From: Clostridia bacterium
GTDB taxonomy: Bacteria; Bacillota; Clostridia; Christensenellales; Aristaeellaceae
Assembly: GCA_017938695.1 (NCBI GenBank)
Contig: JAGBBA010000040.1
Coordinates: 1 to 61,575 of the forward strand
Direction: 5' to 3'
Length of the DNA stretch: 61,575 bases
In this document: one piece after another, positions 2,930 through 61,373 of the stretch
How positions within the stretch are numbered: the first letter of the stretch is position 1
Layout: each line of letters starts with the position of its first letter
Program-made: the position numbers and the translations under genes
The notes under the pieces: model-generated
The model's input: the letters and a program-made list of their open reading frames with translations, nothing else
Database searches by the model: none
Told to the model about the DNA's origin: nothing

Positions 2930-4417
2930 TTACTGCGCAGGGGCAACGCGCCACCAATCGGTAGTGGCATTGCCTGCAAAGGTGATGAACACATCCTGCT
3001 GGCCGGAAACAGCGGCGGTATCCACAGTGATCTCGGTCATCTCGCCGCCGGCAGGGATGGTCAGGTAGCACAGCACATCGCCGGTGATGCGGCCCACTGT
3101 CACCCGGACGGCGCAGCCTTCCTGGGAGGCGGCGCGCAGGGTGAACTGGCTGGCCCCCTGAGAGAAATCAACGCCCTTCACATGGATCCAGGAACCGGCG
3201 GAGGCCGTAAGGGCAATGTCATCTGCATAGCCGGTGACCTCGATGGCGGCCTGGCGGTAGATGGTCCGTGCGGAAACCTGCTGGTAGGGGTCCAGGGGCT
3301 GGAGCTGCTCCACACCCTTCATGGTGCCGATCACGGTCTTGATGCTGCCGTCCTCGTTCACGGTCAGCTTGTTGATCTGCGGGCTGCGGTAGTCGCCGGT
3401 GATCTTCATGGCCTTTTCCACGGGACGGTTGTGATACAAAAGGTAGTGCTCGCCCCGGAAGGTCACGATGCTGTGATGGTTGTTGCCATACAGGCCGAAG
3501 AAACGGCCCTGGTTGGGGAACAATTCGCCCTGGTAGGTGAAGGGCCCCATGGGGGAGGAACTGGTCATGTACTGGATCGCACCGCTGGTCAGGCCCAGGT
3601 TGTTGCCGTCGGTCTGCCAGTTGGAGCAGTAGGAATAGTAATAGGTGTCGCCGATGCGGTTGATGCCGGAATCCTCAAACACATAGGGGGCGTTGATCAC
3701 CTGGGGCACGCCCACGATGGAGATCATGTCCTCGCCCAGCTGCACGCAGCGGATGGTGCCGGGGTCAGCCGTCTTGCCCTCGGGGACGCCGCCGCCGAAG
3801 TAGAGGTAGCCGGTGCCGTCTTCATCCACGAAAACGGCGGGGTCGAACAGCCATGTCACGTTGGCGCAGTTGGGCACGGAACGGGTGATCAGCCCGTGGC
3901 CCAGGGGATCAGTCCAGGGGCCGGCAGGGTCGTCTGCGGTCAGCACGGACACGCCGTTGCCACCGTTGCAGAAGTACAGGAAGAACTTGTCCTGGCCGTC
4001 GATCACCTTGTGGGCGGCGCAGGGGGCCCAGGAATGGCTAGCCCATTTGGCAATACCCTCGCGCCCGGCCACGGGGATGGCGCCGTGATCCGTCCAGTTC
4101 ACCAGATCGGCGGAGGAAATGCAGTTGATCTTGTTGATCAGGCCGTAGGTGTTTTCCTTCACGTTGCCCTGGGCGTCGTATTCAATAATGTCGTTGGTGG
4201 TATACACATACATGCGGTCGTTCCACACCAGCACGCCGGGATCCGCCCCGAAACGCTGGGTGAACAGGGGATTGTTTTCGCCCATGGTTTTATAGGTGTT
4301 TTGCAGCTTGACGGTTTTGAACAAAGCGGTCATCTCTTCTTTCTGGGTGTTGGCTTCCTCTGCCGATGCGGCGGCCAGCCACAAAAGCGACAGAATAAAC
4401 GCAAACAGCTTTTTCAT
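2930..4417 (-). CDS. Exported GH43-family glycosidase (arabinanase/xylosidase type)
   Basis: A 495-aa protein beginning with a signal peptide (MKKLFAFILSLLWLAAASA). The body is a five-bladed beta-propeller typical of GH43: RFGADPGVLVWNDRMYVY carries the first-blade Asp (general base position), WAPCAAHKVIDG and a later VDEDGTGYLYFGGG are family-like, and VFEDSGINR probably contains the acid Glu. About 130 C-terminal residues look like a CBM6-type beta-sandwich (VDFSQGASQFTLRAAS). GGAGGTGCACC directly precedes the chosen ATG. It probably removes arabinose or xylose from plant polysaccharide outside the cell; exact specificity cannot be read. It stands alone, with its own terminator. Confidence 0.85.
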   Translation of the reverse strand: MKKLFAFILSLLWLAAASAEEANTQKEEMTALFKTVKLQNTYKTMGENNPLFTQRFGADPGVLVWNDRMYVYTTNDIIEYDAQGNVKENTYGLINKINCISSADLVNWTDHGAIPVAGREGIAKWASHSWAPCAAHKVIDGQDKFFLYFCNGGNGVSVLTADDPAGPWTDPLGHGLITRSVPNCANVTWLFDPAVFVDEDGTGYLYFGGGVPEGKTADPGTIRCVQLGEDMISIVGVPQVINAPYVFEDSGINRIGDTYYYSYCSNWQTDGNNLGLTSGAIQYMTSSSPMGPFTYQGELFPNQGRFFGLYGNNHHSIVTFRGEHYLLYHNRPVEKAMKITGDYRSPQINKLTVNEDGSIKTVIGTMKGVEQLQPLDPYQQVSARTIYRQAAIEVTGYADDIALTASAGSWIHVKGVDFSQGASQFTLRAASQEGCAVRVTVGRITGDVLCYLTIPAGGEMTEITVDTAAVSGQQDVFITFAGNATTDWWRVAPAQ

Positions 4418-5840: not shown

Positions 5841-5867
5841 AAAAAACCGCTTGCTTTCAAGCGGTTT
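5841..5867 (-). terminator. Former tRNA-Val terminator at island left end
   Basis: Stem AAACCGCTTG/CAAGCGGTTT with a T-run on the minus strand, directly downstream of the partial tRNA copy in tRNA orientation. It is probably the original terminator of the tRNA gene before integration. Confidence 0.6.
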
Positions 5868-5869
5868 GT

Positions 5870-5912
5870 GTGGGATTAGTAGGGCTCGAACCTATGACCT
5901 CCACGATGTCAA
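5870..5912 (-). repeat. attL-like partial copy of tRNA-Val 3' half
   Basis: 43 bp identical to 13338-13380, which covers the anticodon-loop to 3'-end half of the tRNA-Val gene. It lacks the 5' half and so is not a functional tRNA. This is the usual trace left when an element integrates by recombination into a tRNA 3' end. Confidence 0.85.
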
Positions 5913-5973
5913 GCGACCTTGAAACCCTTGAAAATACTGCGCTTGCTTCATGTTTTGTGTGTTCAATTGTCAG

Positions 5974-6005
5974 AAAACAGAACGGTGATTCCGTTCTGTT
6001 TTTAT
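5974..6005 (+). terminator. Hairpin terminator inside island left end
   Basis: Perfect 12-bp stem (arms 5974-5985 and 5991-6002) followed by T-rich sequence. It could end a transcript of which the gene has been lost. Confidence 0.55.
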
Positions 6006-6549
6006 ATTGAAATTAAGATAGAAGAATCAACTATGACTTCCGGTTGATTCGTTACAACTTTCTAATATTGCCTAGTGCGGTGGAGGCTTTATTCTATGAC
6101 TGTCTGACTTTCGCTTGCAACAATCGACCTTTTACCTACAACGATGAGAAAAGCGGGAACTCTTTCAGTCGTGAAGTGTGCAGTTTTTTAGAATTCAACA
6201 AAAGAAAAAAACGTAAAAGAAATTAATGCAATTTCTTGATTTTTTCTGAATAACTCCTCCATTTATAAGCACTTATTCATAGCGATATACACGAATTTCC
6301 GCATTTTATGCAGAAATCATTGAATATCGCATAAACTTTCTTTTCGTTTCAGACATCTAATTTTGTATTTATTAACAGGCCTTAAACATTGGTATGATAA
6401 GGCTTTGTGGGTTTCCTATTCATTTTGGCGTATTTCTATGCATTGGACATACATGGAATCCTGAGTATAATGTGAATTGTGGCCACGATAACAACGAAAC
6501 TCAAACGACAAACGGCAAGGCCGTAGGAGAAAGAAAAGTAAAGTATTCT
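6006..6549. other. AT-rich leader of the island, no convincing gene
   Basis: Markedly more AT-rich than the flanking chromosome. A 60-codon frame (6044-6226) has no recognisable content or good ribosome site and is not called. An extended -10 (TGG-TATGAT, 6390-6398) could drive the downstream trio, giving a leader of about 150 nt with a small hairpin (ACGGC/GCCGT, about 6512-6524) next to AGGAGA (6525-6530). Confidence 0.35.
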
Positions 6550-6927
6550 ATGGGTTACGAGGTAAGCCTCGTGGAAAAGAAAATTGTCATGACGAAAGAT
6601 TTCGCACGCAAGGCCGCCATTCTCGGCACGGAAGAGTATGCACGATATATGCAACTCAAAGCGCAGTATCCTACCTTTACACCTACCCGCTACTCCATTG
6701 ACCAGAAAGCTGACCGGGTATCCTACGAGAAGCTAAGTTATAAGAGCATGGCCATCCTGATTGCTGAATGGAGACCCAACGATAAGGCGGCCTTAGAGGA
6801 ATTGGAAAGTATCAAGCGTGAGGCAAAAGCCTATGCCGGTTCCTACGGTATCGTCAAGCATTGGTTCCTTTCCAACTATAAGGAACAGTATATGTCCCGT
6901 ATGAGTGCAAGCACGAACGATGATTGA
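6550..6927 (+). CDS. Island protein of unknown family, paralog 1 of 3
   Basis: A 125-aa soluble, basic protein not recognised. It resembles the two genes that follow: an N-terminal block with YEVSLVEKKIVMTKDFARKA and AILGTEE, a middle LSYKSM block, and a C-terminal YGIVKHWFLSNYKEQY block. No signal peptide, membrane segment or catalytic motif is visible. Start at 6550 is chosen because the homology with the paralogs begins there; AGGAGA lies 19 nt upstream, further than usual, so a start at 6394 in the same frame cannot be excluded. First gene of a likely three-gene operon. Base composition is lower in GC than the chromosome around the island. Confidence 0.6.
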   Translation: MGYEVSLVEKKIVMTKDFARKAAILGTEEYARYMQLKAQYPTFTPTRYSIDQKADRVSYEKLSYKSMAILIAEWRPNDKAALEELESIKREAKAYAGSYGIVKHWFLSNYKEQYMSRMSASTNDD

Positions 6928-6941
6928 GAGGAGTGACAATT

Positions 6942-7343
6942 GTGAATCGCAACGGATATTATGTGGATTTCATCGGCAATACGGTTACTGTTAGCAAGAA
7001 GTTCCTGATGAAAGCAAGTGAAATTGGAAGCCCTTCTTATAAGACCATGATGAAGCTCCGCGCTTTGGGTATGCCCATCGTCCAGGAGAAGCGCAAAAAG
7101 CCCAAGCGTGCGGCAAAGCTCTCCTATCAGAAAATGCGGCACTACATCACTTGCCTTGCAGATGCTCAAACCTATCTGCTGCAATTTGAGGCTGCCCGCA
7201 ACGCCTCCCGGGGCGAAAAAGACCCTTACGGCTATATGCTGAACTGGTTTGAAGACACTTTCCCTAATCACGCCGCGGTTCCTGAGTTCGACGAAAACTA
7301 TCGAATCGTCAACACTCCCGCCAACTACGCTAACAATGCTTGA
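6942..7343 (+). CDS. Island protein of unknown family, paralog 2 of 3
   Basis: A 133-aa basic protein of the same unknown family: YYVDFIGNTVTVSKKFLMKA, then EIGSPSY, a lysine-rich linker, LSYQKMRHYI, and a C-terminal DPYGYMLNWFEDTFPNH block. A GTG start at 6942 with GAGAGGAG seven nt upstream is preferred over in-frame TTG 6924. It begins 14 nt after paralog 1 stops and is followed 23 nt later by paralog 3, so the three are probably one transcript. The shared pattern K-x-F-x-x-x-A near the N-terminus and P-Y-x-Y-(V/M)-x-x-W-F near the C-terminus defines the family. Function unknown. Confidence 0.7.
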   Translation: MNRNGYYVDFIGNTVTVSKKFLMKASEIGSPSYKTMMKLRALGMPIVQEKRKKPKRAAKLSYQKMRHYITCLADAQTYLLQFEAARNASRGEKDPYGYMLNWFEDTFPNHAAVPEFDENYRIVNTPANYANNA

Positions 7344-7366
7344 TAAAAGAAAGGAAGTAAATCACT

Positions 7367-7852
7367 ATGCGTATTAACAAAATGTGTGCTCGTTACAACT
7401 TTGACCTTTTCACCAATACCCTGACCATCTCTAAGGAATTTGAAAAGCGCGCTGCCATCCCCGGCTCGATTGAGCAACTGACTTTCTGCCAGTTTGCTGC
7501 CTCTTATGGGGAAAGTCTGGTGGTAAAGCACTATGAGACGCACCAGGTCAAAAAGGGTTTGACCTTTAAGCAGATGGAAGTCTTCATCGACAAGTGTCGC
7601 GATGCGGACAAGCGCAAAAAGGAATTTGAGGCAGTCAAAGAAATGTCCCAGGGACAGACAAGCCCCTATAGGTATGTGAAGACCTGGTTCCTGGATAACT
7701 ACGCCAACTACTCCGAAACTCCTGTATTTGATGCAGATGGCTTTGCCGTTGTGAAGACCAAGGCACAGATGGATGCAGAGAAGAAAGCAACGGAAGAATC
7801 GGTAGTGGCTATGGAAATTTCAAACATAACCCCACTTCCTGTGTCTGCTTGA
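7367..7852 (+). CDS. Island protein of unknown family, paralog 3 of 3
   Basis: A 161-aa protein, the longest of the trio: YNFDLFTNTLTISKEFEKRA, AIPGSIEQ, a KKGLTFKQMEVFIDKC block, and SPYRYVKTWFLDNYANY near residue 105, followed by an extra Lys/Glu-rich tail. AAAGGAAGT lies upstream of the ATG, and a strong terminator follows the stop. Alternating beta-strand-like N-terminus and helical middle suggest a compact alpha/beta fold that could bind nucleic acid, but this is a guess. No function can be assigned. Confidence 0.7.
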   Translation: MRINKMCARYNFDLFTNTLTISKEFEKRAAIPGSIEQLTFCQFAASYGESLVVKHYETHQVKKGLTFKQMEVFIDKCRDADKRKKEFEAVKEMSQGQTSPYRYVKTWFLDNYANYSETPVFDADGFAVVKTKAQMDAEKKATEESVVAMEISNITPLPVSA

Positions 7853-7857
7853 AAGTA

Positions 7858-7891
7858 GAAAGGCGAAGACAGATGTTCTTCGCCTTTTTCT
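7858..7891 (+). terminator. Terminator of the three-paralog operon
   Basis: Stem AAAGGCGAAGA/TCTTCGCCTTT followed by a T-rich tail, just after the paralog 3 stop. Confidence 0.8.
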
Positions 7892-8029
7892 TTTGTTCTG
7901 GATTCAAGGAAAAAGAGTAGGAAAAGGCAAGTTGTGGCTGAACCTCATACGTGAAGAGCGAGAAAGAAAATAAAATAGTTATTATTTCTATTGTGAAGCA
8001 GAAGGACATCCATAAACATACTTGCGGCT

Positions 8030-8376
8030 GCGGCCTCACCGTAGATGGGCTTGGGCATGAAGGTGGCTCTCTTGCCATGCTTGAGGGCGGTGTTTCATGG
8101 CGTTGCCCGTCATGGACAGGGTGGGGATGTCGCAGAAGGGATCAATGACGGCGGTGTCAGGATCGGGGATGAAGACCATGTCGCTCTTTTCCACCACGGC
8201 ATAGCCATAGTTGAGGCGTCGAAGCCGATGGCGCTCTTCATGGTATCCTCAGAGAAGTTCTCGGCAGGGATGGTCACGTGACGATACTGACCGTTGATGT
8301 CGGCGATTTTGAAATCGACCATGCGGATGCCTTTTTCCTGGATCAGATTCATGATGTCCTGTACGCTCTTTGCTAT
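8030..8376 (-). pseudogene. glnA: Glutamine synthetase remnant
   Basis: Minus-strand translation gives glutamine synthetase pieces in three frames. The N-terminal piece includes IRMVDFKIADINGQYRHVTI and ends at IGFDAS. A one-base deletion near 8205 shifts to YGYAVVEKSDMVFIPDPDTA. After TLSMTGNAM an internal deletion joins LKHGKRATFMPKPIYGEA, the conserved ATFMPKP region, and then homology stops. The expected start codon reads ATA behind a good AGGAGA site. About three quarters of the gene is missing. It lies inside the island between the trio and the ABC importer. No product is expected. Confidence 0.85.
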
Positions 8377-8487
8377 GGTGTATCTCCTTGAACAGTCGGT
8401 TTGTTCCTTCCAGTATATATAACAGGGAAGGCGGGATGCGTCAGTGTGTATTGCGGGGAATAAGCATCCGGAGTACAAAACAGACAA

Positions 8488-8571: not shown

Positions 8572-9645
8572 ATGAAGAAACTGTTTTCTCTCCTGTTGAC
8601 CTTGGCCATGATCCTTGGCTGCGTGAGCTTTGCTTCCGCCGAGATCGACGCTGACCTGATCAAGGCCGCCCAGGAAGAGGGCGAACTGATCGTCTACGGC
8701 TCCTGCGAAGAGCCCTACCTGAATGCTGCTGCCCGTCACTTCGAAGAGCTGTATGGCATTAAGGTATATCCCCAGCGCCTGTCCACCGGCGAAGTGCAGG
8801 CCAAGATCACCGAAGAAGCCGGCAACCCCTCTGCTGACGTGTGGTTCGGCGGCACGACCGATCCCTACAACGAGAGCGCCAAGGCTGGCCTGCTGATGGC
8901 CTATGAAGCCAAGAACGCTGCTGACCTGGCCGGTGCTATGTACCGTGACGCCGATGGCTACTGGTACGGCATCTACAAGGGCATCCTGGGCTTCATGGTC
9001 AACACCGAAGAACTGGCTCGCCTGAACCTGGAGGCTCCTAAGGGCTGGGACGATCTGCTCAAGCCCGAGTACAAGGACCTGGTATGGGTTTCCAACCCCA
9101 ACACCGCCGGCACCGCCAAGCTGATCATCAACACCATGGTGCAGCTGAAAGGCCACGACGACGCCATGAAGTACTTTGTGGAGCTGGACAAGAACGTTGC
9201 CCAGTACACCAAGTCCGGCTCCGGCCCCTCCAAGAAGGTCGGCATCGGCGAATGCGTCATTGGCGTTGGCTTCCTGCATGACGGCATCGCCCAGATCCTC
9301 TCCGGTTACGACAATATCGCCCTGGTGATCCCCGAGGAAGGCACTTCCTTCGAAATCGGCGCTACCGCTATTTTCGAGGGCTGCGCTCATCCCAATGCTG
9401 CCAAGCTGTGGGTGGAATACGCCCTGTCTCCCGAGTGCGTGGAGCTGGCTGACGATGCCGAGAGCTATCAGTTCCTGGTCATCAACTCCGCCAAGCAGCC
9501 TGCTGCTGTGGAGCCCTTCGGCCTGGATCCCAACAATGTGATCGATTACGATTTCGAAGATGCCAAGAACAACACCACCCAGTATGTGCAGGACTTCTTC
9601 AATGCCCTGGGTGCTGCTGCTGACAGCCGCTTCAAGACCGAATAA
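8572..9645 (+). CDS. ABC importer substrate-binding protein, FbpA/AfuA (Fe3+) type
   Basis: A 357-aa exported binding protein that captures substrate for the permease and ATPase encoded next. The signal region MKKLFSLLLTLAMILGC contains an imperfect lipobox (ILGC), so it may be lipid-anchored. The mature part fits the family 1 binding proteins for ferric iron, putrescine or phosphonate: ELIVYGSCEEPYLNAA, GIKVYPQRLSTGEVQAKI, SADVWFGGTTDPY. Iron is the best guess; the ligand residues were not checked against a structure. AAGGAGA precedes the ATG. First gene of a three-gene operon inside the tRNA-Val island. Confidence 0.82.
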   Translation: MKKLFSLLLTLAMILGCVSFASAEIDADLIKAAQEEGELIVYGSCEEPYLNAAARHFEELYGIKVYPQRLSTGEVQAKITEEAGNPSADVWFGGTTDPYNESAKAGLLMAYEAKNAADLAGAMYRDADGYWYGIYKGILGFMVNTEELARLNLEAPKGWDDLLKPEYKDLVWVSNPNTAGTAKLIINTMVQLKGHDDAMKYFVELDKNVAQYTKSGSGPSKKVGIGECVIGVGFLHDGIAQILSGYDNIALVIPEEGTSFEIGATAIFEGCAHPNAAKLWVEYALSPECVELADDAESYQFLVINSAKQPAAVEPFGLDPNNVIDYDFEDAKNNTTQYVQDFFNALGAAADSRFKTE

Positions 9646-9671
9646 TCCCGATACAACTACATGACAACTTC

Positions 9672-9699
9672 GGGGGGATGGGAGTGATCCCATCCCCCT
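9672..9699 (+). promoter_or_regulatory. Intercistronic hairpin between binding protein and permease
   Basis: An 11-bp GC stem with GTGA loop (arms 9673-9683 and 9688-9698) and only a short T-poor tail. This is typical of a hairpin that stabilises the upstream mRNA and lowers expression of downstream genes. Confidence 0.6.
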
Positions 9700-9723
9700 C
9701 ATTTTCCAAAGGGGTGAAGACCC

Positions 9724-11667
9724 GTGAGAACAAAGCAAAGCGCGGCGCTGGAGCGCAAGAAGTTCTTTGGTGATCCCGTGATGGTGGTCACCATTGGGCT
9801 GCTTTTGGTGCTGCTGGCGCTGTTCATCCTATATCCTCTGGCCATGCTGCTGGTGGACAGCGTTCACGTGAGCCAGAACCAGATGCTGACCCTGGAGAGC
9901 GTGCTCTCCGGCCAGGCGGAAGCTCCCTATGAGCAGGAGGGCAAGGCCGTCAGCGTGCTGGACAAAAAGAACAATCCGCTGACTGTCTCCCTGGACGAGC
10001 TGGACGGTGCCTATGGTTATCTTTTTGCCAAGAATGGCCGTGTGCTGGCCGAGGGGGATGAGATCGATCCCGCCAATACCTATGTGAAGGTGAAGCAGGA
10101 ATACTGGACGGCGGACGCATTCCCCCGCATTTTTGCGGATTATACCTTCAACACAGCTTTCTTCAACACCCTGCGGCTGGGCTTTATCACCAGCTTTGGC
10201 GCGGTGGTGGTGGGCCTCTTGTTTGCCTATGTGGATTGCTATGTGAACGTCCGCTCCCGCATCGTGAAGAAGATGTTCGACGTGGTATCCACCTTGCCGG
10301 TGGTTTCGCCGCCCTTTGTGCTTTCCCTTTCCATGATCCTGCTCTTTGGCCGCGGGGGACTCATTACCCGCAAGCTGCTGGGCATCTACGACAGCGACGT
10401 GTACGGCATGTGGGGCATTGCCATTGTGCAGATCCTCACGTTCTTCCCTGTGTGCTACATGATGCTCAAGGGCCTGCTGAAGAACATTGATCCCTCCATG
10501 GAGGAAGCTGCCCGCAACATGGGCGCCAGCCGCTGGAAGGTGTTTACCACCGTGACCCTGCCGCTGATGCTCCCGGGCCTGGGCAATGCCTTCCTGGTGA
10601 CCTTCATTGAGTCCGTGGCTGACTTTGCCAATCCCATGATGATCGGCGGCAGCTACGATACCCTGGCCACCACCATCTACCTGCGCATTACCGGCGGCAG
10701 TTATGACACCACCGGTGCCGCTGCCATGGCTGTGGTGCTTTTGTGCATCACGCTGGTATTGTTCCTGATCCAGAAGTATTACCTGGAGGCCAAAACGGCG
10801 GCCACCCTCACCGGCAAGGCCAGCCGCGCCCGCGCCCTGATTGAGGATCGAAGCGTGCGCATCCCACTGACCACCATCTGTTCGGTGATCTCTGCTTTTG
10901 TAATCCTGATGTACATCGCCATCCCCTTCGGCGCGCTGTTCAAGCTGTGGGGAAGAGATTACAGCCTGAGCCTGAAGTGGTTCCAGCAGCTGTTCCGGGA
11001 TGACGGCTTCAAGGCCTTTACGGATTCCTTTGTCCTGTCGCTGATTGCTGCGCCTATTACTGCGCTGCTTTCCATGATCATCTCCTACCTGGTGGTGAAG
11101 AAGAAATTCCGCGGCAAGGGATTCATCGAGTTTGTATCCATGCTGGCCATGGCGGTGCCCGGCACGGTGCTGGGCGTGGGCTTTATCCGTGGCTTTGCTG
11201 GCGGTGTGTTCCGCACCGGCTTCCTGCAGGGGATCTACGGCACAGGCATCATCCTGGTGATCGTCTTTGTGGTGCGCTCGCTGCCGGTGGGTACCCGCAG
11301 CGGCATTTCTGCCCTGCGGCAGATTGACAAGTCCATCGAGGAATCCGCCTATGACCTGGGTGCTGGCAGCGCGAAAGTGTTTACCTCCGTGACCCTGCCG
11401 CTGATCAAGGATTCCTTCCTCAGCGGTCTGGTAACCACCTTTGTGCGTTCCATCACGGCCATCAGCGCCATCATTCTGCTGGTTACGCCCAGGTATCTGC
11501 TCATTACCTGCCGCATCAATGAATTCGCCGAGAAGGGCGCCTATGGCGTGGCCTGCGCTTACGCCACCATTCTGATCGCCATCGTTTACGCGGCCATTGT
11601 GCTCATGAACCTGGTCATCAAATACTTCGGTACCAGCAAGAAAATGCGTGTGAAGGAGAGTGATTGA
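9724..11667 (+). CDS. ABC importer permease, double-domain FbpB type
   Basis: A 647-aa inner-membrane permease consisting of two fused BPD_transp_1 domains, as usual for FbpB-type ferric permeases. Two EAA-type loops that contact the ATPase are visible: EEAARNMGASRWKVFTTVTL in the first half and EESAYDLGAGSAKVFTSVTL in the second. Between the first membrane helix and the first domain lies a roughly 100-residue non-membrane insert (about 40-135) rich in Glu and Lys. Start is GTG at 9724 behind AAAGGGGTGA. It follows the binding protein by 78 nt and is one nt from the ATPase start. Confidence 0.88.
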   Translation: MRTKQSAALERKKFFGDPVMVVTIGLLLVLLALFILYPLAMLLVDSVHVSQNQMLTLESVLSGQAEAPYEQEGKAVSVLDKKNNPLTVSLDELDGAYGYLFAKNGRVLAEGDEIDPANTYVKVKQEYWTADAFPRIFADYTFNTAFFNTLRLGFITSFGAVVVGLLFAYVDCYVNVRSRIVKKMFDVVSTLPVVSPPFVLSLSMILLFGRGGLITRKLLGIYDSDVYGMWGIAIVQILTFFPVCYMMLKGLLKNIDPSMEEAARNMGASRWKVFTTVTLPLMLPGLGNAFLVTFIESVADFANPMMIGGSYDTLATTIYLRITGGSYDTTGAAAMAVVLLCITLVLFLIQKYYLEAKTAATLTGKASRARALIEDRSVRIPLTTICSVISAFVILMYIAIPFGALFKLWGRDYSLSLKWFQQLFRDDGFKAFTDSFVLSLIAAPITALLSMIISYLVVKKKFRGKGFIEFVSMLAMAVPGTVLGVGFIRGFAGGVFRTGFLQGIYGTGIILVIVFVVRSLPVGTRSGISALRQIDKSIEESAYDLGAGSAKVFTSVTLPLIKDSFLSGLVTTFVRSITAISAIILLVTPRYLLITCRINEFAEKGAYGVACAYATILIAIVYAAIVLMNLVIKYFGTSKKMRVKESD

Positions 11668-11668
11668 T

Positions 11669-12748
11669 ATGGCTGGCAAGGAAAAGAAAGGGGTTAAGCT
11701 GGATCATATCTCCAAGATTTACAACGACCCGAAAACCGGCAAGCAGTTTTACGCGGTGAATGACGTCTCGCTGGAGATCCAGCCGGGCAGCTTTGTGACG
11801 CTGCTGGGCCCCTCCGGCTGCGGCAAAACCACCACCCTGCGCATGATCGCCGGCTTTGAAAGCCCCGATGAGGGCGAAATCTACCTGGGCGATCAGGCCA
11901 TCAACGCCCTGACCCCCAACAAGCGAGACACAGCCATGGTATTCCAGAGCTATGCGCTGTTCCCGCACTACAATGTTTACGACAACGTGGCCTATGGCCT
12001 GAAGCTGCGTAAGGTGCCCAAGGCGGAAATGGATGAGCGCATTGCGAAGATCCTGGAGCTGGTGGAGCTCACCGGCATGGAAAGCCGCATGACCAACCAG
12101 CTTTCCGGCGGCCAGCAGCAGCGCGTGGCCCTGGCCCGCGCCATGGTGGTGGAGCCCAGCGTGCTCCTGTTTGACGAGCCCCTCTCCAACCTGGACGCCA
12201 AGTTGCGCGTCTCCATGCGCACGGAGATCCGCCGCATCCAGCAAACCCTGGGCATTACCGCCGTGTATGTGACCCACGACCAGGCGGAGGCCATGGCGAT
12301 CTCTGACCAGATCATCATCATGAACAAGGGTGTCATTGCCCAGATGGGCACGCCGGAGGAGATCTACCATCATCCCAACAGCGAATTCGTGGCGGACTTC
12401 ATCGGTGAGGTGAACTTCCTGACCGGCGAGGTGGTGAAGGTGAAGACCAAGGGCTGCGTGATCCGCATTGCCGGTCATGACGTGAAGGTGGAGAACCCCG
12501 ATGGCTTTGAAGTGGGCCAGACCTGCAAAGTGGTGCTCCGCCCCGAGGCGGGCATCCTGGCAGACGAGGGCGCTTTGCCTTGCAAGGTAGTGCTGAGCTG
12601 CTTCATGGGTGCTTACCAGAATTACCACGTCATGGTAGGCGACACTTTGGTAAAGCTGGCGGATTACTGCCCTGTGGGCCGCAAGGTCTATCAGGTGGGA
12701 GACACCGCCTATCTCAGCTTCCGCGAAGGTTGCGTACACATGCTGTAA
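11669..12748 (+). CDS. ABC importer ATPase, FbpC/PotA type
   Basis: A 359-aa ATPase that powers the importer. Walker A GPSGCGKTT, Q-loop MVFQSYALFPH, signature LSGGQQQRVALARAM, Walker B VLLFDEPLSNLD and switch His in VYVTHDQAEAMA are all intact. A C-terminal TOBE-like domain (about 245-355) is present. ATG 11669 is chosen because AAGGAG ends 10 nt upstream; an in-frame GTG at 11660 is too close to that site. Last gene of the operon, followed by a terminator. Confidence 0.9.
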   Translation: MAGKEKKGVKLDHISKIYNDPKTGKQFYAVNDVSLEIQPGSFVTLLGPSGCGKTTTLRMIAGFESPDEGEIYLGDQAINALTPNKRDTAMVFQSYALFPHYNVYDNVAYGLKLRKVPKAEMDERIAKILELVELTGMESRMTNQLSGGQQQRVALARAMVVEPSVLLFDEPLSNLDAKLRVSMRTEIRRIQQTLGITAVYVTHDQAEAMAISDQIIIMNKGVIAQMGTPEEIYHHPNSEFVADFIGEVNFLTGEVVKVKTKGCVIRIAGHDVKVENPDGFEVGQTCKVVLRPEAGILADEGALPCKVVLSCFMGAYQNYHVMVGDTLVKLADYCPVGRKVYQVGDTAYLSFREGCVHML

Positions 12749-12811: not shown

Positions 12812-12958
12812 TTACGCGCTCTGCTGCTCCAGGCGGAATTTATCACTAAGCATGGCGATGAATTCCCCATTGGTGGGTTTGTCCTCCTTGGTGGCTACCT
12901 TGCAGCCGAAGGCCTTGTTCAGGGTAGGGAAGCCTTCAAAAAACTTGGCATCCTCGGA
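12812..12958 (-). pseudogene. spo0A: Stranded 3' fragment of spo0A
   Basis: The last 49 codons of a minus-strand frame resemble the C-terminal end of the sporulation master regulator Spo0A: KPTNGEFIAMLSDKFRLEQ is close to the well-known KPTNSEFIAMVADKLRLE of Bacillus. A preceding LNKAFGCKV matches the expected LF/AFG-x-x-V segment. Upstream of about 12958 the similarity ends, and the frame closes at 13001. No receiver domain, no start codon and no ribosome site are present, so this is a broken-off tail. It directly abuts the integrase remnant on the opposite strand. Confidence 0.72.
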
Positions 12959-12970
12959 AAATACAACAAC

Positions 12971-13150
12971 CACGATTGGAGCTCGACTTTCGGCACTCAG
13001 TTAAAAGAGCGCGGCATGAGTAGTGCCATCGTGGCTGATTTGCTGGGACATGCGGACACGAGAATGGTTGAAACAACCTATGCAAGAACCCGGCATGAGG
13101 GCATCCTGAAACAGCGAAGCGCGGTGGAGGCTCTTAACGATTTTCTGTAA
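12971..13150 (+). pseudogene. C-terminal remnant of tyrosine recombinase (integrase)
   Basis: Sixty codons without a start: HDWSSTFGTQLKERG, then IVADLLGHADTRMVETTYA and a charged tail to a TAA stop. This matches the end of phage or ICE integrases: the LLGH histidine and the nucleophile tyrosine (TTY) are present, but the catalytic Arg expected in HDLRHTF is replaced (HDWSSTF), perhaps because the break lies there. It sits about 190 bp from the tRNA-Val att site, the normal place of an integrase, and supports the integration model. It cannot work on its own. Confidence 0.8.
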
Positions 13151-13296: not shown

Positions 13297-13335
13297 GAAA
13301 AACCGCAAGCCCTTGTTTTCAAAGACTTGCGGTTT
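13297..13335 (-). terminator. tRNA-Val terminator brought by the element
   Basis: Stem AACCGCAAG/CTTGCGGTT (13301-13309, 13326-13334) with minus-strand T-run, immediately downstream of the tRNA. It is analogous to but different from the hairpin at 5841-5867. Confidence 0.65.
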
Positions 13336-13337
13336 AA

Positions 13338-13380
13338 GTGGGATTAGTAGGGCTCGAACCTATGACCTCCACGATGTCAA
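13338..13380 (-). repeat. attR-like direct repeat inside tRNA-Val
   Basis: Perfect 43-bp match to 5870-5912. The bases beyond either end differ between the copies, fixing the repeat limits. Confidence 0.85.
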
Positions 13381-13412
13381 CGTGGCGCTCTAACCAACTG
13401 AGCTATAATCCC
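13339..13412 (-). tRNA. tRNA-Val (anticodon GAC)
   Basis: Complete cloverleaf on the minus strand: acceptor GGGATTA/TAATCCC, D arm GCTC/GAGC, anticodon stem CCACG/CGTGG with loop TTGACAT (anticodon GAC), and T arm with TTCGAGC. CCA is not encoded. It served as the integration site of the island. Confidence 0.93.
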
Positions 13413-17181: not shown

Positions 17182-18069
17182 TCAGTCTTTGCGTTCGGTG
17201 CCCCAGAAGAAGAGGGCGACGGTGCCGGGGCCGGTGTGGCTGCCGATGGTGGTGCCGATGTGGTTGATTTCGACCTTGCCGTTGAGGTTGGGGAAACGGG
17301 TTTCGATCAGGTCGGCCACGGCGCGGGCGTCATCGTAGCAGGCGGACTGGCTGATGTAGCACTTGCCGGCATAGTCGGTGCCGTCCTGGGCATGCTCGGC
17401 CATGCGGTCAACGATGGCGGAGATTACCTTGCGCTTGGTGCGGATCTTCTCGCGGGGGATCAGCTTGCCTTCGTAGCTGACGTTCAGCAGGGGGCAAATG
17501 TTCAGCAGCTTGCCCACGAAGCCGGAGGTCTTGCTGACGCGGCCGCCCTTGATGAAGAAGGTCAGGTCGGAGGTGAAGAACCAGTGGTGAAGGTTCAGCT
17601 TGTGGCTCTCGGCCCAGGCGGTCAGGTCGTCCAGGGACATGCCCTCGTCGCGCAGGTCGGCCAGCTTATCCATCAGAAGGCCAAAGCCGGAGGAGGCGGC
17701 CAGGGAGTCCACAATGTTGACCTTGCGGCCGGGGAACTTGGCTTCCAGGCTTTCCTTGGCCAGACGGGCAGAGTTGTAGGTGCCGGAAATGCCGGAGGAC
17801 AGCGTGAGGTGCAGTACATCCAGCCCCTGCTCCAGGAAGGGGGTGAAATAGGCCTCGAATTCCTCGGCATTCACCTGGGCGGTACGGGTGTCGGCACCGT
17901 CCACCATGGCCTGATAGAACTTGTCGAAGGGCATGGACTGGCCCAGGTCGTCGGCATAATCAACGCCGTCGAGCTGGTAGTGGAAGCAAACGTAGTGGAT
18001 GTTGCGCTGCTCGAAGTGCTCGCGGGACAGATCGGCCGTGGAACAGCAGCTGAGTACATAATTGGGCAT
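17182..18069 (-). CDS. DegV family fatty-acid-binding protein
   Basis: A 295-aa cytoplasmic protein with the two-domain DegV fold. Members bind a fatty acid and can deliver it to the FakA kinase. Family signs: an early CSTADL segment, LTLSSGISGTYNSA, NIVDSLAASSGFG and FIKGGRVSKTSG; the final IGTTIGSHTGPGTVALFF is the typical C-terminal glycine motif. The chosen ATG is seven nt after GGAGG; an ATG six bases earlier is too near it. Gene ends exactly at the four-hairpin repeat. Confidence 0.92.
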   Translation of the reverse strand: MPNYVLSCCSTADLSREHFEQRNIHYVCFHYQLDGVDYADDLGQSMPFDKFYQAMVDGADTRTAQVNAEEFEAYFTPFLEQGLDVLHLTLSSGISGTYNSARLAKESLEAKFPGRKVNIVDSLAASSGFGLLMDKLADLRDEGMSLDDLTAWAESHKLNLHHWFFTSDLTFFIKGGRVSKTSGFVGKLLNICPLLNVSYEGKLIPREKIRTKRKVISAIVDRMAEHAQDGTDYAGKCYISQSACYDDARAVADLIETRFPNLNGKVEINHIGTTIGSHTGPGTVALFFWGTERKD

Positions 18070-18230
18070 GATCATTCCTCCTGGATAATGCCGTATGAAT
18101 CAATGAACAAAGATATTATACAACGTTTCAGCCCAAAACGGAACCCCTATTTTTTATTAAAAACCGTACAACGGTTTTTCAAAAACCGGAACAATGCGAA
18201 ATGCGGGTGACGCAGGCGCAACGGACAAAA

Positions 18231-18266
18231 GAACCGTCCGCAGGCGGTGAGGCTTGCGGACGGTTC
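18231..18266 (-). terminator. Terminator after alpha-galactosidase
   Basis: 15-bp stem (18231-18245 and 18252-18266, one wobble) followed on the minus strand by TTTT-rich sequence. Confidence 0.7.
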
Positions 18267-18288
18267 GGCATGGTTGTGTTGCGGGGGC

Positions 18289-20478
18289 TTATGCTTCCAC
18301 GATGTGGATCAGCTTGCCTTTGAAATCGCCCCACATGTTGCTAACCAGGATGCCGGCCTGCATCAGGGTGCTGCCCAAATAGGTGCGGTCCTCGCCCTCG
18401 ATGCGGTAGAGCTTATCGGGGCACAGGCCCTTGAGCAGAATGCGGCGGGAGTGGGAGCTGGGACGGCCCAGCACCTGGATGAAGGTGACCAGGGCTTCGG
18501 ACTTGTCCTTCTTCACCACCATCCAGCAGTCGTACAGGTGGTTCTGCTGGTAGGAGGCCACGCGGTAGTAATCGCCGGTGCGCACCAGGTCGTTGTACTT
18601 GTGGTACATGGCCACCTGGTCGGGGATCATGTTGCGGTCTTCCTCGGGGATCTTGGTCACATCCAGCTCATAGCCGAAGGTGCCGGCCAGGGCCACGTAG
18701 CCGCGGGTCTCGAAGGGCGTGGTGCGGCCCACGGTGTGGTTGGGGCAGTCGCTGACGTGGGCACCCATGGCGGACAGGGGGTAGATCAGCGCGGTGCCTT
18801 CCTGGATGGACAGACGCTCAACGGCGTCGGTGTCGTCGGAGCACCAGATCTGGGGGCCGTAATACAGCATGCCTGCGTCGAAGCGGGCACCGCCGCCGGA
18901 GCAGTTCTCCAGCAGGATGTGGGGGAACTCGCTGGTCAGGCGTTCCTGCAGGCGGTACACGCCCAGCACATACCGGTGGTACAGTTCGCCCTGGCACTCG
19001 GCAGACAGGGCGTAGCTGCCCAGGTCGGACAGGGGACGGTTCATGTCCCACTTCACATATTCGATGTTGGCGCTGCGCAGCACCTTCGAAATCATGTCGA
19101 ATACATTGTCCTGGATCTCTCTGCGGGACATATCCAGCACATACTGGTTGCGGCCCAGTGCAGCGGTGCGGCCGGGGATCTGGATGGCCCAGTCGGGATG
19201 GGCGCGGTACAGGTCGGAATCGGGGCTGATCATTTCCGGCTCCACCCAGATGCCAAACTTCATGCCCAGCTTGTTCACTTCATCCACCAGGTACTTCAGG
19301 CCGCCGGGGAGCTTCTCTTCGTTCACGAACCAGTCGCCCAAGGCGCGGTTGTCGTCGAAGCGGTTGCCGAACCAGCCGTCGTCCATCACCAGCATTTCAA
19401 TGCCCAGCTTGGAGGCCTGGCGGGCGATATCCAGCAGCTTTTCGGTGTTGAAGTTGAAGTAGGTGGCCTCCCAGTTGTTGATGAGGATGGGACGCTTCTT
19501 GTCGCGGTACTGGCCGCGGATGAGATGCTCGCGATACAGGTCGTGGAAGGCGTGGCTCATGCCGTTGAGGCCCTCGGCAGAGTACACCAGCACGGCTTCG
19601 GGGGCCTGGAAGCTCTCGCCGGGGTTCAGCTTCCAGCAGAAGCCCTCGGGGTTGATGCCGGTCATCACGCGCACGTTGTCGAACTGGCCGCGATCCGCCA
19701 GGGTGAGGAAGTTGCCGGAGTAAACCAGGTTGATGCCGTACACATCGCCAGCGTCCTCGGTGGCGTTCTTGTCCAGCAGGGCCATGAAGGGATGGGTCTG
19801 ATGGCCTTCCTCGCCGCGGATGGAGGACATGCCCTGGATGCCGTAATTCACCGGGGTGCGGTTGATGCGGCGTTCACGGGCCCAGGAGCCGGTGAGCAGG
19901 ATCTTGTCATACTCGTTGTTGTCCATGTCCATGGAGGCGGACATGATGCGGTCGATATACACGGGCGCGTCGCTTTCGTTGATCAGCTTCACGCTGCGAA
20001 CCACCGCGTCGATGCCCTCGAAGATGCTGTAGGAAAGGATGGCCTTCACCTTCAGCACCTTGTCGGTCAGCACCAGCTCCAGGGTTTCGGTATCATCCTC
20101 GCTGCCCCAGGTGGCAGGCAGGCCCTCCAGGGGCTTTTTGCCCTTGTAGATGTTGTAGCTGTCCAGGGTCAATTGCAGGGCACGGTGGCCGCCGCTGCTG
20201 CGCACCACAATGGCACTCTCGCGGAAGTCGCCGATGCCGCCGGTGGGGTATTCCATGGGGAAGCAGTCCAGGAAGGACAGCCGGTCGCGGGCGTTGACTT
20301 CGGGGGTGAAGGGGCCTTCGCCGGTGCGCATCAGGTAGGTCACATCGTCCTGGCCCAGCTTTTTGCCAAAGTAGGCATGGCCCACAAAGCCCTCGGCATC
20401 CACCACGCCGATGACGTAAGAGGCGGCCTTGGTATCCAGCTGGAAGCTTTTGTTGTTTGCATTGTAACGGATCGCCAT
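18289..20478 (-). CDS. Alpha-galactosidase, GH36
   Basis: A 729-aa intracellular enzyme, the usual length for tetrameric bacterial GH36, that releases alpha-1,6-galactose from raffinose or melibiose. Visible: LVMDDGWFGNRFDD and GIWVEPEMISPDSDLY in the barrel, nucleophile Asp in YVKWDMNRPLSD, and the acid/base Asp in WCSDDTDAVERL after LLENCSGGGARFDAGML. An N-terminal beta-supersandwich fills residues 1-320. No signal peptide. AGGAGTGAGC precedes the ATG. The divergent AraC-type regulator next door is its likely activator. Confidence 0.93.
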   Translation of the reverse strand: MAIRYNANNKSFQLDTKAASYVIGVVDAEGFVGHAYFGKKLGQDDVTYLMRTGEGPFTPEVNARDRLSFLDCFPMEYPTGGIGDFRESAIVVRSSGGHRALQLTLDSYNIYKGKKPLEGLPATWGSEDDTETLELVLTDKVLKVKAILSYSIFEGIDAVVRSVKLINESDAPVYIDRIMSASMDMDNNEYDKILLTGSWARERRINRTPVNYGIQGMSSIRGEEGHQTHPFMALLDKNATEDAGDVYGINLVYSGNFLTLADRGQFDNVRVMTGINPEGFCWKLNPGESFQAPEAVLVYSAEGLNGMSHAFHDLYREHLIRGQYRDKKRPILINNWEATYFNFNTEKLLDIARQASKLGIEMLVMDDGWFGNRFDDNRALGDWFVNEEKLPGGLKYLVDEVNKLGMKFGIWVEPEMISPDSDLYRAHPDWAIQIPGRTAALGRNQYVLDMSRREIQDNVFDMISKVLRSANIEYVKWDMNRPLSDLGSYALSAECQGELYHRYVLGVYRLQERLTSEFPHILLENCSGGGARFDAGMLYYGPQIWCSDDTDAVERLSIQEGTALIYPLSAMGAHVSDCPNHTVGRTTPFETRGYVALAGTFGYELDVTKIPEEDRNMIPDQVAMYHKYNDLVRTGDYYRVASYQQNHLYDCWMVVKKDKSEALVTFIQVLGRPSSHSRRILLKGLCPDKLYRIEGEDRTYLGSTLMQAGILVSNMWGDFKGKLIHIVEA

Positions 20479-20652
20479 ATGCTCACTCCTGTTCTATGGA
20501 TGGGGTATACAGGTTGATCGAACGGATATCATACATTTCTATTGTACCGGAACGCATGCGAATTGGCTATACCGAATAGCGACTTGTTTCGAAATTGCAT
20601 GGTTGCTATTTTTAACATGATGTGCTATGCTTGCAGGCAAGGGGGAATCGCC

Positions 20653-21495
20653 TTGAATATTGATATCATGCCCAACAAACCGCTGTATATGGACATGGCC
20701 TACATCAACGGTAACTGGAAATATTACACCATGGACATCCACCGCCACGGCCTGCTGGAGTGCAATTATATCGCCGAGGGCAAGTGTACCTATGAGATCG
20801 GCGGCGTGCCCTATCATTTAACCAAGCGGAACCTGATCCTGCTGGATTCGTCCATTCCCCATAAGATCACCTTCAACCATGAGCATCCCTGCACGGTAAT
20901 GGGCATGTCGCTTTCCTTTGCCGATGCGCAGGCCCCTGCCGCCATGCCGGGCTTCCGGGAGGTGCTGGCGCAATCGCCGGACATGCACCGGCTGATCCTT
21001 TCGCTGGAGCAGGCACTGGTTTTCCCGGATGCCCGGGCCCTGCAGGGGGATATCCTGCGCCTGGCCCGTGAGTATGACGGCCGCCGGGATGCGCTGTACA
21101 TGAACAGCCTGAGCTACCACCTGCTGTCCCAGATCGCCAGGCTGCCGCTGACGGAACAATCCTCCGTGCAGCATTATGTGGAGAAGACGCAGAACTACAT
21201 CAAGGAGGCCTTCTATCTTATCAGGAACAATGAGCAGATCGCCGAGCACCTGGGCCTGAACGCCACTTACCTGGAAAGGATCTACAAAAAAGCCACGGGC
21301 AGCACACTGTGGGAAAGCGTGACCGCCTGCCGCATGGCCGCAGCGGAGGAACTGCTGGCCCAGCCTGCCATCCCCATCCATGAGATCGACAACATGATCG
21401 GGTTTGTGAACCGGCAGACCTTCTACCTGCAATTCAAAAAGCGGTACGGCATGTCGCCCACGGAATTCCGGAAAAACAAAATGAACTGCCCTTGA
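20653..21495 (+). CDS. AraC-family regulator, probable activator of the GH36 gene
   Basis: A 280-aa regulator. An N-terminal cupin (about 30-110, GLLECNYIAEGKCTYEIGG) should bind the inducing sugar; two C-terminal helix-turn-helix motifs (IAEHLGLNATYLERIYKKAT and the final FVNRQTFYLQFKKRYG) bind DNA. A TTG start at 20653 is chosen from AAGGGGG seven nt upstream; an ATG at 20668 or a longer form from 20542 are alternatives. It is transcribed away from the alpha-galactosidase with only 174 bp between. Confidence 0.85.
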   Translation: MNIDIMPNKPLYMDMAYINGNWKYYTMDIHRHGLLECNYIAEGKCTYEIGGVPYHLTKRNLILLDSSIPHKITFNHEHPCTVMGMSLSFADAQAPAAMPGFREVLAQSPDMHRLILSLEQALVFPDARALQGDILRLAREYDGRRDALYMNSLSYHLLSQIARLPLTEQSSVQHYVEKTQNYIKEAFYLIRNNEQIAEHLGLNATYLERIYKKATGSTLWESVTACRMAAAEELLAQPAIPIHEIDNMIGFVNRQTFYLQFKKRYGMSPTEFRKNKMNCP

Positions 21496-21504
21496 AAAAG
21501 CAAA

Positions 21505-21540
21505 GAGCCGCCGATGCAGTTTCGGCGGCTCCGTTTTTTG
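21505..21540. terminator. Terminator between AraC gene and glgP
   Basis: 10-bp stem GAGCCGCCGA/TCGGCGGCTC with A-rich left and T-rich right flanks, serving both converging genes. Confidence 0.8.
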
Positions 21541-21554
21541 TTTTTGAGGGATGA

Positions 21555-23915
21555 TTATACGCGCCAGATCTCCTCGGCGTACTGCTGAATGGTGCGGTCG
21601 GAGGAGAACTTGCCGGCGGAGGCCACGTTCATCAGGCACTTGCGGGCAAAGGACAGGCTGTCCTTGTAGTCGCGGTTGGCCCGAAGCTTGGCGTCCATGT
21701 AGGAGGCGAAGTCCTTGAGGATGAAGTAGTGGTCCGGAGCGTGCCAGGATGCGCCTTCCAGCAGGGCGGAGTGCAGCTCATGCAGCGCGCCGTCCTCGTC
21801 GGGGAAGGTGCCGTCCACCAGGGCGTCCAGGCAACGGGCCAGCAGGGGATCGGCGTTGTAGTATTCCTTGGGGTCATAGCTGCCCTTGATGGCGTTGAGC
21901 TCTTCCACCGTGGCACCGAAGATGTAGTTGTTCTCCCGGCCAGCCTGCTCTACGATCTCGATGTTCGCGCCGTCGAAGGTACCCAGGGTCACTGCGCCGT
22001 TGAGCATCAGCTTCATGTTGCCGGTGCCGCTGGCCTCGGTGCCTGCGGGGGAGATCTGCTCGGAGATATCCGCGGCGGGGATGATCTTCTCCGCCCAGGA
22101 GCAGTTGTAGTTCTGCACGAAGACCACCTTGAGCTTGTCGCAGGTGTCGGGGTCATCGTTGACCATATCGGCGATCATGTTGATCAGGTGGATCACAGCC
22201 TTGGCCCGGGCATAGCCTGCGGCGGCTTTGGCACCGAAGATGAAGGCGGTGGGGGTAAAGTCCGGCAGGAGGCCGTCCTTCAGCCGGTAGTAGATGCCCA
22301 GGATGGACAGCGCGTTCATCAGCTGCCGCTTGTACTCATGCAGACGCTTCACCTGCACCTGGAAGATCATGTTGGGGTCCAGGACAACGCCCTCCATGTG
22401 GGCGATCTCCGCGGCCAATTGGAGCTTCTTTTCATGCTTGACCTGGATGAAATCGCGGCACAGGTCATCGTTGATATGGGGCTTGAGCTGCTCCAGCTGG
22501 TACAGGTCGGTGAGGAAGCCATCGCCGATCTTGCCTTTGATCAGGGCAGAAAGCTCCGGGTTGCACAGGCCCAGCCAGCGACGCTGGGTGATGCCGTTGG
22601 TCTTGTTCTGGAACCGCTCGGGGTAGAGGGTGAACCAGTCGGCGAACACGTCGTCCTTGAGGATCTGGGAGTGGATGGCTGCCACGCCGTTGATGGTGTG
22701 GGAGGCGTACAGGGCCAGCTGGGCCATGTGCACCTGCATCACATCGGGGTTCCACCGGTTGGGCCAGATGATGCAGCGCGTGGCGGAAACCTCCGCGTTC
22801 TTCTCGGCCATTTCCGCCTTGAAGCGGGCGTCGATCTTGCGGATGATGCGCACGATCTCCGGGCACACGGCAGACAGTAGGGGCAGATCCCACTTTTCCA
22901 GGGCTTCCTGCATCACGGTGTGGTTGGTGTAGGAGCAGGTCTCCCGGGTGATCTGGAAGGCCTCTTCGAAGGACACGCCGTCGGCCATCAGCAGGCGGAT
23001 GATCTCCGGGATGGCCATCACGGGGTGGGTATCGTTGAGCTGCACGGCATGCTCGGCAGCGAAGAAGGAATAGTCGCTGCCGTGGCGGGCCTTGTAGGCG
23101 CGGAACAGATCCTGCATGGAGGCACTGACCAGCACATACTGCTGCTCCACGCGCAGAAGCTTGCCTGCGCGGCGGGAATCGTTGGGGTAAAGGAACTTGG
23201 TGATGTTTTCGGCCTTGATCTTGTCAGCCACGGCGGCGGAGTACTTCTGCTGGTTGAACAGCGGGAAGTCGATGTCCTTCAGGCTTTCGCACTGCCAAAG
23301 GCGCAGGGTGCCGATGCTCTTGGCACCGTAGCCGATGACGGGCATATCGTAGGGCACGGCCAGCACATCGCCGGTCTTCATGGGGACGATCACGGCCTGA
23401 TCCAGCCTGCGGATGCTCCACGGGTCGCCGAAGCGGGACCAGTCGTCGGGCTCCTCGTGCTGGCGGCCGTCCACAAAGATCTGCTTGAACAGGCCGTAGC
23501 GGTAGCGCAGACCGTAGCCGGTCAGCGGCACGCCGTGGGTGGCGGCACTGTCCAGGAAGCAGGCGGCCAGACGGCCCAGACCGCCGTTGCCAAAGGCGTC
23601 ATCCTCGATGTCCTCCAGGATGGCCAGGTCGACGCCGCGCTGGGCCAGGAGCTGACGGGCTTCGTCCAGCAGGCCCAGGCAGAACAGGTTGTTGTACACC
23701 ATGCGGCCCACCAGGTATTCGCAGGAGAGGTAGTAGGCCTGCCGCTTGGTGGCACGCTCTTCCTCGCACTTGATCCAGGTGGGGGTCAGGGCCTCCATGG
23801 CAGCGGCGGAAAGGGCGTTGTGCAGCTGGATGGCATTGGCCTTTTCCAGCGTGATATGCTCCTGGGTCAGCAGGAGCTTCTCGGTTTGGGCAATGAGTTC
23901 GGTTGCGGTCATCAT
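21555..23915 (-). CDS. glgP: Glycogen/maltodextrin phosphorylase
   Basis: A 786-aa PLP enzyme that releases glucose-1-phosphate from alpha-1,4-glucan ends. The PLP lysine lies in ASGTGNMKLMLNGAV; other family blocks include FGNGGLGRLAACFLDS, LNDTHP and HEYKRQLMNALSILG. Length is slightly shorter than E. coli GlgP, as usual for Firmicutes. AAGGGGGAAATAATCC precedes the tandem ATGs. It follows malQ by only three nt, so the two are co-expressed for maltodextrin breakdown: MalQ lengthens the chains that GlgP phosphorolyses. Confidence 0.95.
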   Translation of the reverse strand: MMTATELIAQTEKLLLTQEHITLEKANAIQLHNALSAAAMEALTPTWIKCEEERATKRQAYYLSCEYLVGRMVYNNLFCLGLLDEARQLLAQRGVDLAILEDIEDDAFGNGGLGRLAACFLDSAATHGVPLTGYGLRYRYGLFKQIFVDGRQHEEPDDWSRFGDPWSIRRLDQAVIVPMKTGDVLAVPYDMPVIGYGAKSIGTLRLWQCESLKDIDFPLFNQQKYSAAVADKIKAENITKFLYPNDSRRAGKLLRVEQQYVLVSASMQDLFRAYKARHGSDYSFFAAEHAVQLNDTHPVMAIPEIIRLLMADGVSFEEAFQITRETCSYTNHTVMQEALEKWDLPLLSAVCPEIVRIIRKIDARFKAEMAEKNAEVSATRCIIWPNRWNPDVMQVHMAQLALYASHTINGVAAIHSQILKDDVFADWFTLYPERFQNKTNGITQRRWLGLCNPELSALIKGKIGDGFLTDLYQLEQLKPHINDDLCRDFIQVKHEKKLQLAAEIAHMEGVVLDPNMIFQVQVKRLHEYKRQLMNALSILGIYYRLKDGLLPDFTPTAFIFGAKAAAGYARAKAVIHLINMIADMVNDDPDTCDKLKVVFVQNYNCSWAEKIIPAADISEQISPAGTEASGTGNMKLMLNGAVTLGTFDGANIEIVEQAGRENNYIFGATVEELNAIKGSYDPKEYYNADPLLARCLDALVDGTFPDEDGALHELHSALLEGASWHAPDHYFILKDFASYMDAKLRANRDYKDSLSFARKCLMNVASAGKFSSDRTIQQYAEEIWRV

Positions 23916-61104: not shown

Positions 61105-61181
61105 CGGGGTGTAGCGCAGTCTGGTAGCGCACGTGCTTTGGGAGCATGGGGCCGGGGGTTCAAATCCCTTCACCCCGACCA
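61105..61181 (+). tRNA. tRNA-Pro (TGG)
   Basis: Acceptor CGGGGTG/CACCCCG, anticodon loop with TGG, T loop TTCAAAT, encoded CCA end. Confidence 0.95.

Positions 61182-61299: not shown

Positions 61300-61373
<74 letters not shown>

Follow-up and report, generated by a model that had tools for sequence, protein, structure and literature searches.

Three small adjacent genes, lying in an island at a tRNA gene of a Clostridia bacterium, raise the question of which genetic unit such a set belongs to and what it does there. The genes occupy positions 6550-7852 of the window, i.e., the whole stretch of 61,575 nucleotides that was analysed, which is one contig of a draft genome (2.53 Mb in 76 contigs, 87.5% complete). 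The first-pass annotation had read them as tandem paralogs of an unrecognised family, carried in one transcript, lower in GC than the chromosome and located in an integrated island, and had proposed a multi-subunit assembly, an anti-phage or antitoxin-like set, or regulators of the element. The main features of the island are as follows.

5861-5912: att repeat at the trio end of the island (52-nt direct repeat, 96% identical)
6466-6471, plus strand: TATAAT, candidate -10 of the trio promoter (by eye; diverged from the cassette of the relatives)
6550-6927, plus strand: first paralog, P0001, 125 aa (open reading frame, sequence match to sister genes)
6942-7343, plus strand: second paralog, P0002, 133 aa, GTG start (open reading frame, sequence match; model pLDDT 90.1)
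7367-7852, plus strand: third paralog, P0003, 161 aa (open reading frame, sequence match; model pLDDT 90.9)
7852-7894, plus strand: inverted repeat after the third paralog (terminator-like by eye)
12962-13150, plus strand: C-terminal remnant of a tyrosine recombinase (PF00589, E 2.8e-5 over 12986-13150)
13329-13380: att repeat at the tRNA-Val end (52-nt direct repeat, 96% identical)
13338-13412, minus strand: tRNA-Val (gac), the integration target, its 3' end overlapped by the att repeat

The trio and its island

The three genes are true paralogs and not a chance likeness, since a search of their own genome with P0003 retrieves both neighbours (E 4.4e-14 and 9.3e-9); the same search found no further copy there. 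The common blocks noticed at first reading are also recovered, the MAFFT alignment of the trio having 14 invariant columns that include the K-x-F-x-x-x-A, Met and W-F blocks, and the predicted models of P0002 and P0003 share the same order of secondary-structure elements. Compared with their counterparts in L053, the closest trio, the genes look constrained (dN/dS of 0.17 for gene 1 and 0.12 for gene 3, dS being saturated for gene 2). Their low GC content holds as well, with 47.4% over 6550-7852 vs 60.7% outside the island.

The family to which the trio belongs is unrecognised, as first stated, and is given here the working name FAM. No match was found in Pfam or NCBIfam at E up to 10, the best PHROGs match has an E value of 0.029, and searches of the PDB by sequence and by fold gave no credible family. 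With PADLOC, two of the proteins have no match and the third has a weak one, to a CARF model (E 0.0073). When 43 FAM members were scanned, any family that was matched was reached by just one or two of them. The FAM profile has a match to NANOG (E 0.016) that covers about 32 positions, and no homeodomain-like chain appears among the fold matches listed. No account of FAM or of its element was found among the titles and abstracts listed by searches of the open-access PMC literature. Furthermore, the homologs described below are not single housekeeping genes.

The 52-nt repeats copy the 3' end of tRNA-Val, which bears out the proposed tRNA island. The recombinase remnant shares 73% identity over 59 aa with the recombinase located beside the L053 trio. 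In L053, the recombinase is separated by about 160 bp from a 43-nt att core, after which another 620 bp or so lead to the trio. This core is 95% identical to the tRNA-Val repeat, and positions 5870-6563 of the window align with the L053 stretch at 70% over 711 columns. The identity of the remnant, joined to these alignments of the att core and of the upstream region, suggests that the two halves found in the window fit both ends of one L053-type element. The window copy reads as a decayed element with an intact trio.

The rest of the island is heterogeneous. Directly after the trio lies a frameshifted fragment resembling the start of a glutamine synthetase gene (8036-8380, minus strand; identity by eye). 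Three transporter genes, which by eye form an ABC binding-protein system, follow at 8572-12748 inside the att repeats, with a GC content of 58.0%, near that of the chromosome. A fragment encoding the C-terminus of Spo0A (12812-12973, minus strand; PF08769, E 2.6e-5) stands beside the recombinase remnant; two sister elements, L086 and L088, adjoin a gene read as spo0A. The middle of the island could be explained by decay and rearrangement, or by a join in the draft assembly. Elsewhere in the window, five tRNA genes (Pro, Glu, Met, Asp and Thr) are found at 61105-61557, near the contig end.

FAM relatives and the element that carries them

Relatives of the trio are concentrated in its own taxonomic family, where P0003 matches 37 of the 300 genomes searched (own included), spread over 13 of 50 genera. 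Two of these matches, in G028 and G198, are weak, with E values near 0.007 and frames that span 559 and 399 aa; they are probably due to chance and were left out of the retrieved loci. Matches to the A1 profile occur in 6 of the 18 genomes of the genus, those to the A2 profile in 5/297 genomes of the order (own included, two being from other families) and in 1/398 genomes of the phylum (own included). Forty regions were retrieved for the comparison of FAM. Nine named loci belong to Clostridia, Clostridiales and Christensenella assemblies and to Oscillibacter valericigenes, three of them from sheep rumen or rectum, eight of the nine not being independent of contigs already in the family-genome set. 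So far as the records indicate, most relatives come from metagenome assemblies. None was found in collections of phages, plasmids and viral contigs, the scans of the latter depending on short conserved peptides.

An iterated profile retrieved 102 FAM ORFs from 41 sources, and the most central member matches all of the 99 rows compared (self included) at E<1e-5. Gene calls were made with a custom script and not with a published caller. The clusters of the 41 sources are mostly triads (18) and pairs (16), along with 3 fours and 4 singles, some of them being cut by contig ends. In a tree of the 99 rows, gene positions change label 25 times vs 65.8 times in shuffles (none of 200 as low). Genes 1, 2 and 3 of the triads group mostly by position, likewise both genes of most pairs, and no gene position forms a single clade. 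Such old paralogs kept in order display the pattern expected of partners with separate roles, which upholds the early proposal of accessory genes whose diverged products plausibly act together. Between close FAM pairs, dN/dS ranges from 0.12 to 0.52 (for the 15 of 17 comparisons with an estimable dS). The cores of the triad proteins are basic (pI 9.2-9.3); those encoded by the first genes of pairs are nearly neutral (+1.4).

The company of FAM genes is recurrent. Across 44 sources, a recombinase is found in 29 (window remnant included), a resolvase in 20, ArdC in 16, c5 in 14, WYL in 11 and c8 in 8; the 29 recombinase matches bear on whether the trio travels with integrases. Pfam identifies these companions as tyrosine recombinase (PF00589), serine resolvase, ArdC, helicase-like ATPase (c5) and WYL regulator. 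It should be emphasized that the counts describe FAM loci and not a random sample, since L053-L092 were picked for containing FAM.

Direct att repeats spanning the cluster and other genes were detected on 9 of 18 contigs, with spans of 4.8-22.8 kb; none was found on the other nine, some of which are cut by contig ends. The repeats derive from the 3' end of a GAPDH gene (four), a rubrerythrin gene (three) or a tRNA-Arg gene (one), and the ninth, of 275 nt, has no assignment. GAPDH, rubrerythrin and full-length Spo0A were named by reading the sequences and not by a family search. The FAM cluster is positioned just within the repeat at the end of the host gene, with or without the recombinase between them, and variable cargo sits between constant element ends. 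For example, the cargo of L112 (genome G060) includes type I methylase and specificity genes, and that of L113 (genome G282) encodes DndB, DndC and DndD according to PADLOC. The location of the cluster in the constant left end by att, with the cargo between the ends, indicates that FAM is backbone-like and not cargo.

Two very large similar ORFs are present in one element, at 12193-16605 of L063 (1470 aa) and at 17742-21929 of the joined contig (1395 aa); the first has no match in PADLOC. Signs of tandem elements were seen at 10948-11647 of L069 (G010:C77), where a second GAPDH repeat and the start of a recombinase gene follow the first element, and on contig G084:C24, which has three ArdC places.

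The FAM set itself is not obligatory. Among 37 ArdC places in 33 FAM-positive genomes, 16 were judged, by reading of tables, to lie away from FAM, and no FAM was detected around them, several of the 16 stopping at a contig end. In one of these, L131, GAPDH is accompanied by recombinase, resolvase and ArdC genes, and a fragment of GAPDH lies at the far end.

One protein family in a fixed order, its place on the att side, the company of recombinase, ArdC, resolvase, c5 and WYL, and the cassettes found in relatives (see below) lead us to read the FAM clusters as left-end genes of an apparently undescribed site-specific integrative element of Christensenellales-like Clostridia; their membership in this element can be regarded as close to shown. 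Like integrative and mobilizable elements (IMEs; PMC5704250 and PMC12904643), this element is small, carries a tyrosine recombinase, integrates at the 3' end of genes and harbours variable cargo. Unlike them, it has no relaxase of the two Pfam families searched: PF03432 has five matching places, spread over four of the nine genomes and all off the element contigs, and PF02486 has none in the nine genomes. With neither relaxase on the nine element contigs, entry by conjugation is at most conjectural. No oriT was found in the FAM elements either. Three elements (L067, L068 and L089) encode an RHH protein (cluster c24; PF01402, E 2.6e-7), which is only a candidate repressor, Cro-like HTH and WYL proteins being encoded in elements as well.

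The promoter-leader cassette

Many FAM genes of the relatives are preceded by a cassette made of an upstream block, an extended -10 (TGnTATAAT), a CAC and a leader in which a GRGGAA-like motif is included in a hairpin; its interpretation as a promoter was made by eye. The upstream blocks are alike inside a locus and different among loci. A profile built from 44 copies, on sequence only, was applied to 1.26 Mb and gave 60 matches with E values no higher than 0.0012. Sixteen were absent from the training set, and one match lies in another taxonomic family (L125). Of the 58 cassettes in L053-L092, 47 stand ahead of FAM genes (46 different ones), and the remaining 11 are followed by genes of other kinds, in one case c2, itself followed by ArdC. 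A locus may hold up to five cassettes (L061 and L055), each ahead of a gene. The cassette precedes c2-ArdC in L081 (E 1.2e-6), in L130 (E 5e-4) and, weakly, in L066 (E 0.15); in most elements, the profile found none ahead of the ArdC unit.

The distribution of cassettes bears on the single transcript that the first-pass annotation had assumed. This remains plausible in the window, where the intergenic gaps are 14 and 23 nt, but in the triads of the relatives, the cassette precedes not only gene 1 (12/17) but often also gene 2 (8/17) and gene 3 (7/17). In pairs, it is found before gene 1 in 11/16 cases and before gene 2 in none of 16. At the promoter of the window itself, which is too diverged, the cassette profile (R1) finds no match.

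The leader is predicted to be structured. Relative to shuffled sequences, the mean z of its fold is -3.01, with 39 of 53 leaders below -2, vs -0.64 and 9 of 53 for upstream control stretches. In an arm-swap test, from which nine leaders of mixed type were left out, the leader's own 3' arm pairs better than the average foreign arm in 39 of 44 cases and worse in five, and 28 of the 44 leaders beat 95% of foreign arms. Two leaders that are probably false (L056 8153 and L059 1027) were included in the fold test and excluded from both the swap test and the profile model.

Other observations concern the same regions. By eye, many FAM genes of the relatives have a second small hairpin just 5' of the start codon, whose loop is AAGGA-like, together with a conserved stretch, AAACCAGAAAGGA, at the ribosome site. 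A CsrA gene, which control of these mRNAs by CsrA would call for, was found in none of 40 genomes (own included), the control being positive in 3 of 14 genomes. In L076, a small protein consisting only of a WCX domain (2943-3305; PF25583, E 2.1e-9) is encoded behind its own cassette and is perhaps a modulator of the WYL regulator of the element.

Possible roles of the set

The best explanation, to which a probability of roughly 40% is given, is that the trio may consist of early-acting, probably nucleic-acid-binding establishment proteins that work as a set. In a settled element, a repressor would hold the cassettes down. Upon entry of the DNA into a cell devoid of this repressor, the strong extended -10 promoters would fire, the 5' hairpin would guard the mRNA and the paralogs would be produced at once. 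Through their basic cores, the proteins, as a set of two or three different subunits, would then stay bound to the entering nucleic acid until integration, and the bound set could shield the element from host defence or aid its conversion to the double-stranded form. The nearly neutral cores of the first proteins of pairs, the ArdC places free of FAM, the small number of recognisable cassettes before ArdC, the absence of both relaxase families from the element contigs, the leaders that do not outdo foreign arms in the swap test and the lack of a recognisable cassette in the window count against this explanation.

The nearest described logic, which the FAM elements may resemble, is that of the establishment regulon of the conjugative plasmid p576 and of the clade II pLS20-family plasmids (EGeRS2), as set out in passages of PMC8708921. 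According to these, strong repressed promoters precede several operons, short 5' inverted repeats are thought to lengthen the life of the mRNA, the regulon includes ardC and many small genes of unknown function, and the RHH repressor does not travel with the DNA. Both p576 and the FAM elements have several units behind similar promoters and 5' inverted repeats, the near-identical promoters on several units being present in the relatives but absent from the window copy; ardC is also present in FAM elements, behind a recognisable cassette in a few of them, and three encode an RHH protein. Unlike p576, the FAM element is integrative, has no recognised relaxase and differs in its promoter, an extended -10, and in its leader, any operator or repressor being conjectural; FAM proteins are not mentioned in the p576 passages of that paper. 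The leading-region anti-defence genes of plasmids (PMC11541004) offer another likeness, with early genes clustered by an antirestriction gene and repeated hairpin promoters. However, in FAM elements the -10 is placed, by eye, outside the hairpin, which starts at about +1, unlike in the single-stranded promoters of leading regions, and a reading of the cassette as a promoter of that type was dropped for this reason.

Other roles would also account for part of the data. The paralogs could be replication or maintenance partners of the gene that often comes next (c5 or c8), the two together opening the excised element, replicating it or keeping it in the cell. This seems unlikely, even if c5 (14/44 sources) and c8 (8/44) often adjoin the cluster, c5 has weak DEAD/ResIII matches and matches to phage helicases (best E 9.7e-6), a locus from another family shows the order rubrerythrin, cassette, FAM, FAM, c5, and the basic cores fit such a role: c5 is sometimes in the opposite orientation, about half of the sources lack c5 and c8, and no replication initiator was recognised. 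The small size and basic nature of the proteins, encoded next to att and often next to the recombinase too, would also suit excisionase-like or architectural DNA binders that assist the tyrosine recombinase. It is quite unlikely that they are such accessory factors, as the type of paralogs and the integration site vary independently (triads at GAPDH and tRNA genes, a pair at GAPDH in L079, a four with a rubrerythrin match in L055), which weakens an excisionase role, and the recombinase lies at the opposite end in several elements (e.g., L075 and G088). Moreover, two or three paralogs would be unusual for a directionality factor.

The presence of the cassette before FAM genes and other left-end genes, its structured leader and the basic cores could instead point to regulators, i.e., RNA or DNA binders that would recognise the leader hairpin or the upstream block and control their own and neighbouring genes. 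This appears improbable, since the elements encode other candidate regulators (RHH, Cro-like HTH and WYL proteins) and no known nucleic-acid-binding domain occurs among the fold matches listed. As for anti-phage defence or toxin-antitoxin cargo, defence genes do occur in sister elements (type I R-M in G060, DndB/C/D in G282), but in another, variable part of them; the position of the cluster in the constant left end and the near-empty PADLOC result weaken this explanation, which is highly improbable. Thus, in the interpretation first put forward, the unrecognised accessory family, the tRNA island and the diverged paralogs stand, the anti-phage or antitoxin set is not supported, and the multi-subunit assembly and the regulators are candidates only.

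A bolder proposal can also be made, which is tentative and rather doubtful. FAM could be a new family with an unrecognised two-part fold (a beta-beta-alpha-alpha-beta part and a three-helix part), whose fixed paralogs would join by twos or threes into hetero-sets and cover or process the DNA of the entering element, and a new type of hairpin promoter would coordinate the entry of a relaxase-less, defence-carrying integrative element.

These results link a protein family that had no annotation with a defined unit, namely integrative elements found in uncultured Clostridia from gut and rumen. Some of these elements carry defence genes, and their attachment sites are GAPDH, rubrerythrin and tRNA genes, with spo0A as a possible further one. 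The cassette provides a regulon signature with which more early genes could be found without homology, and the set would make testable how elements with no recognised relaxase enter their hosts and settle there.
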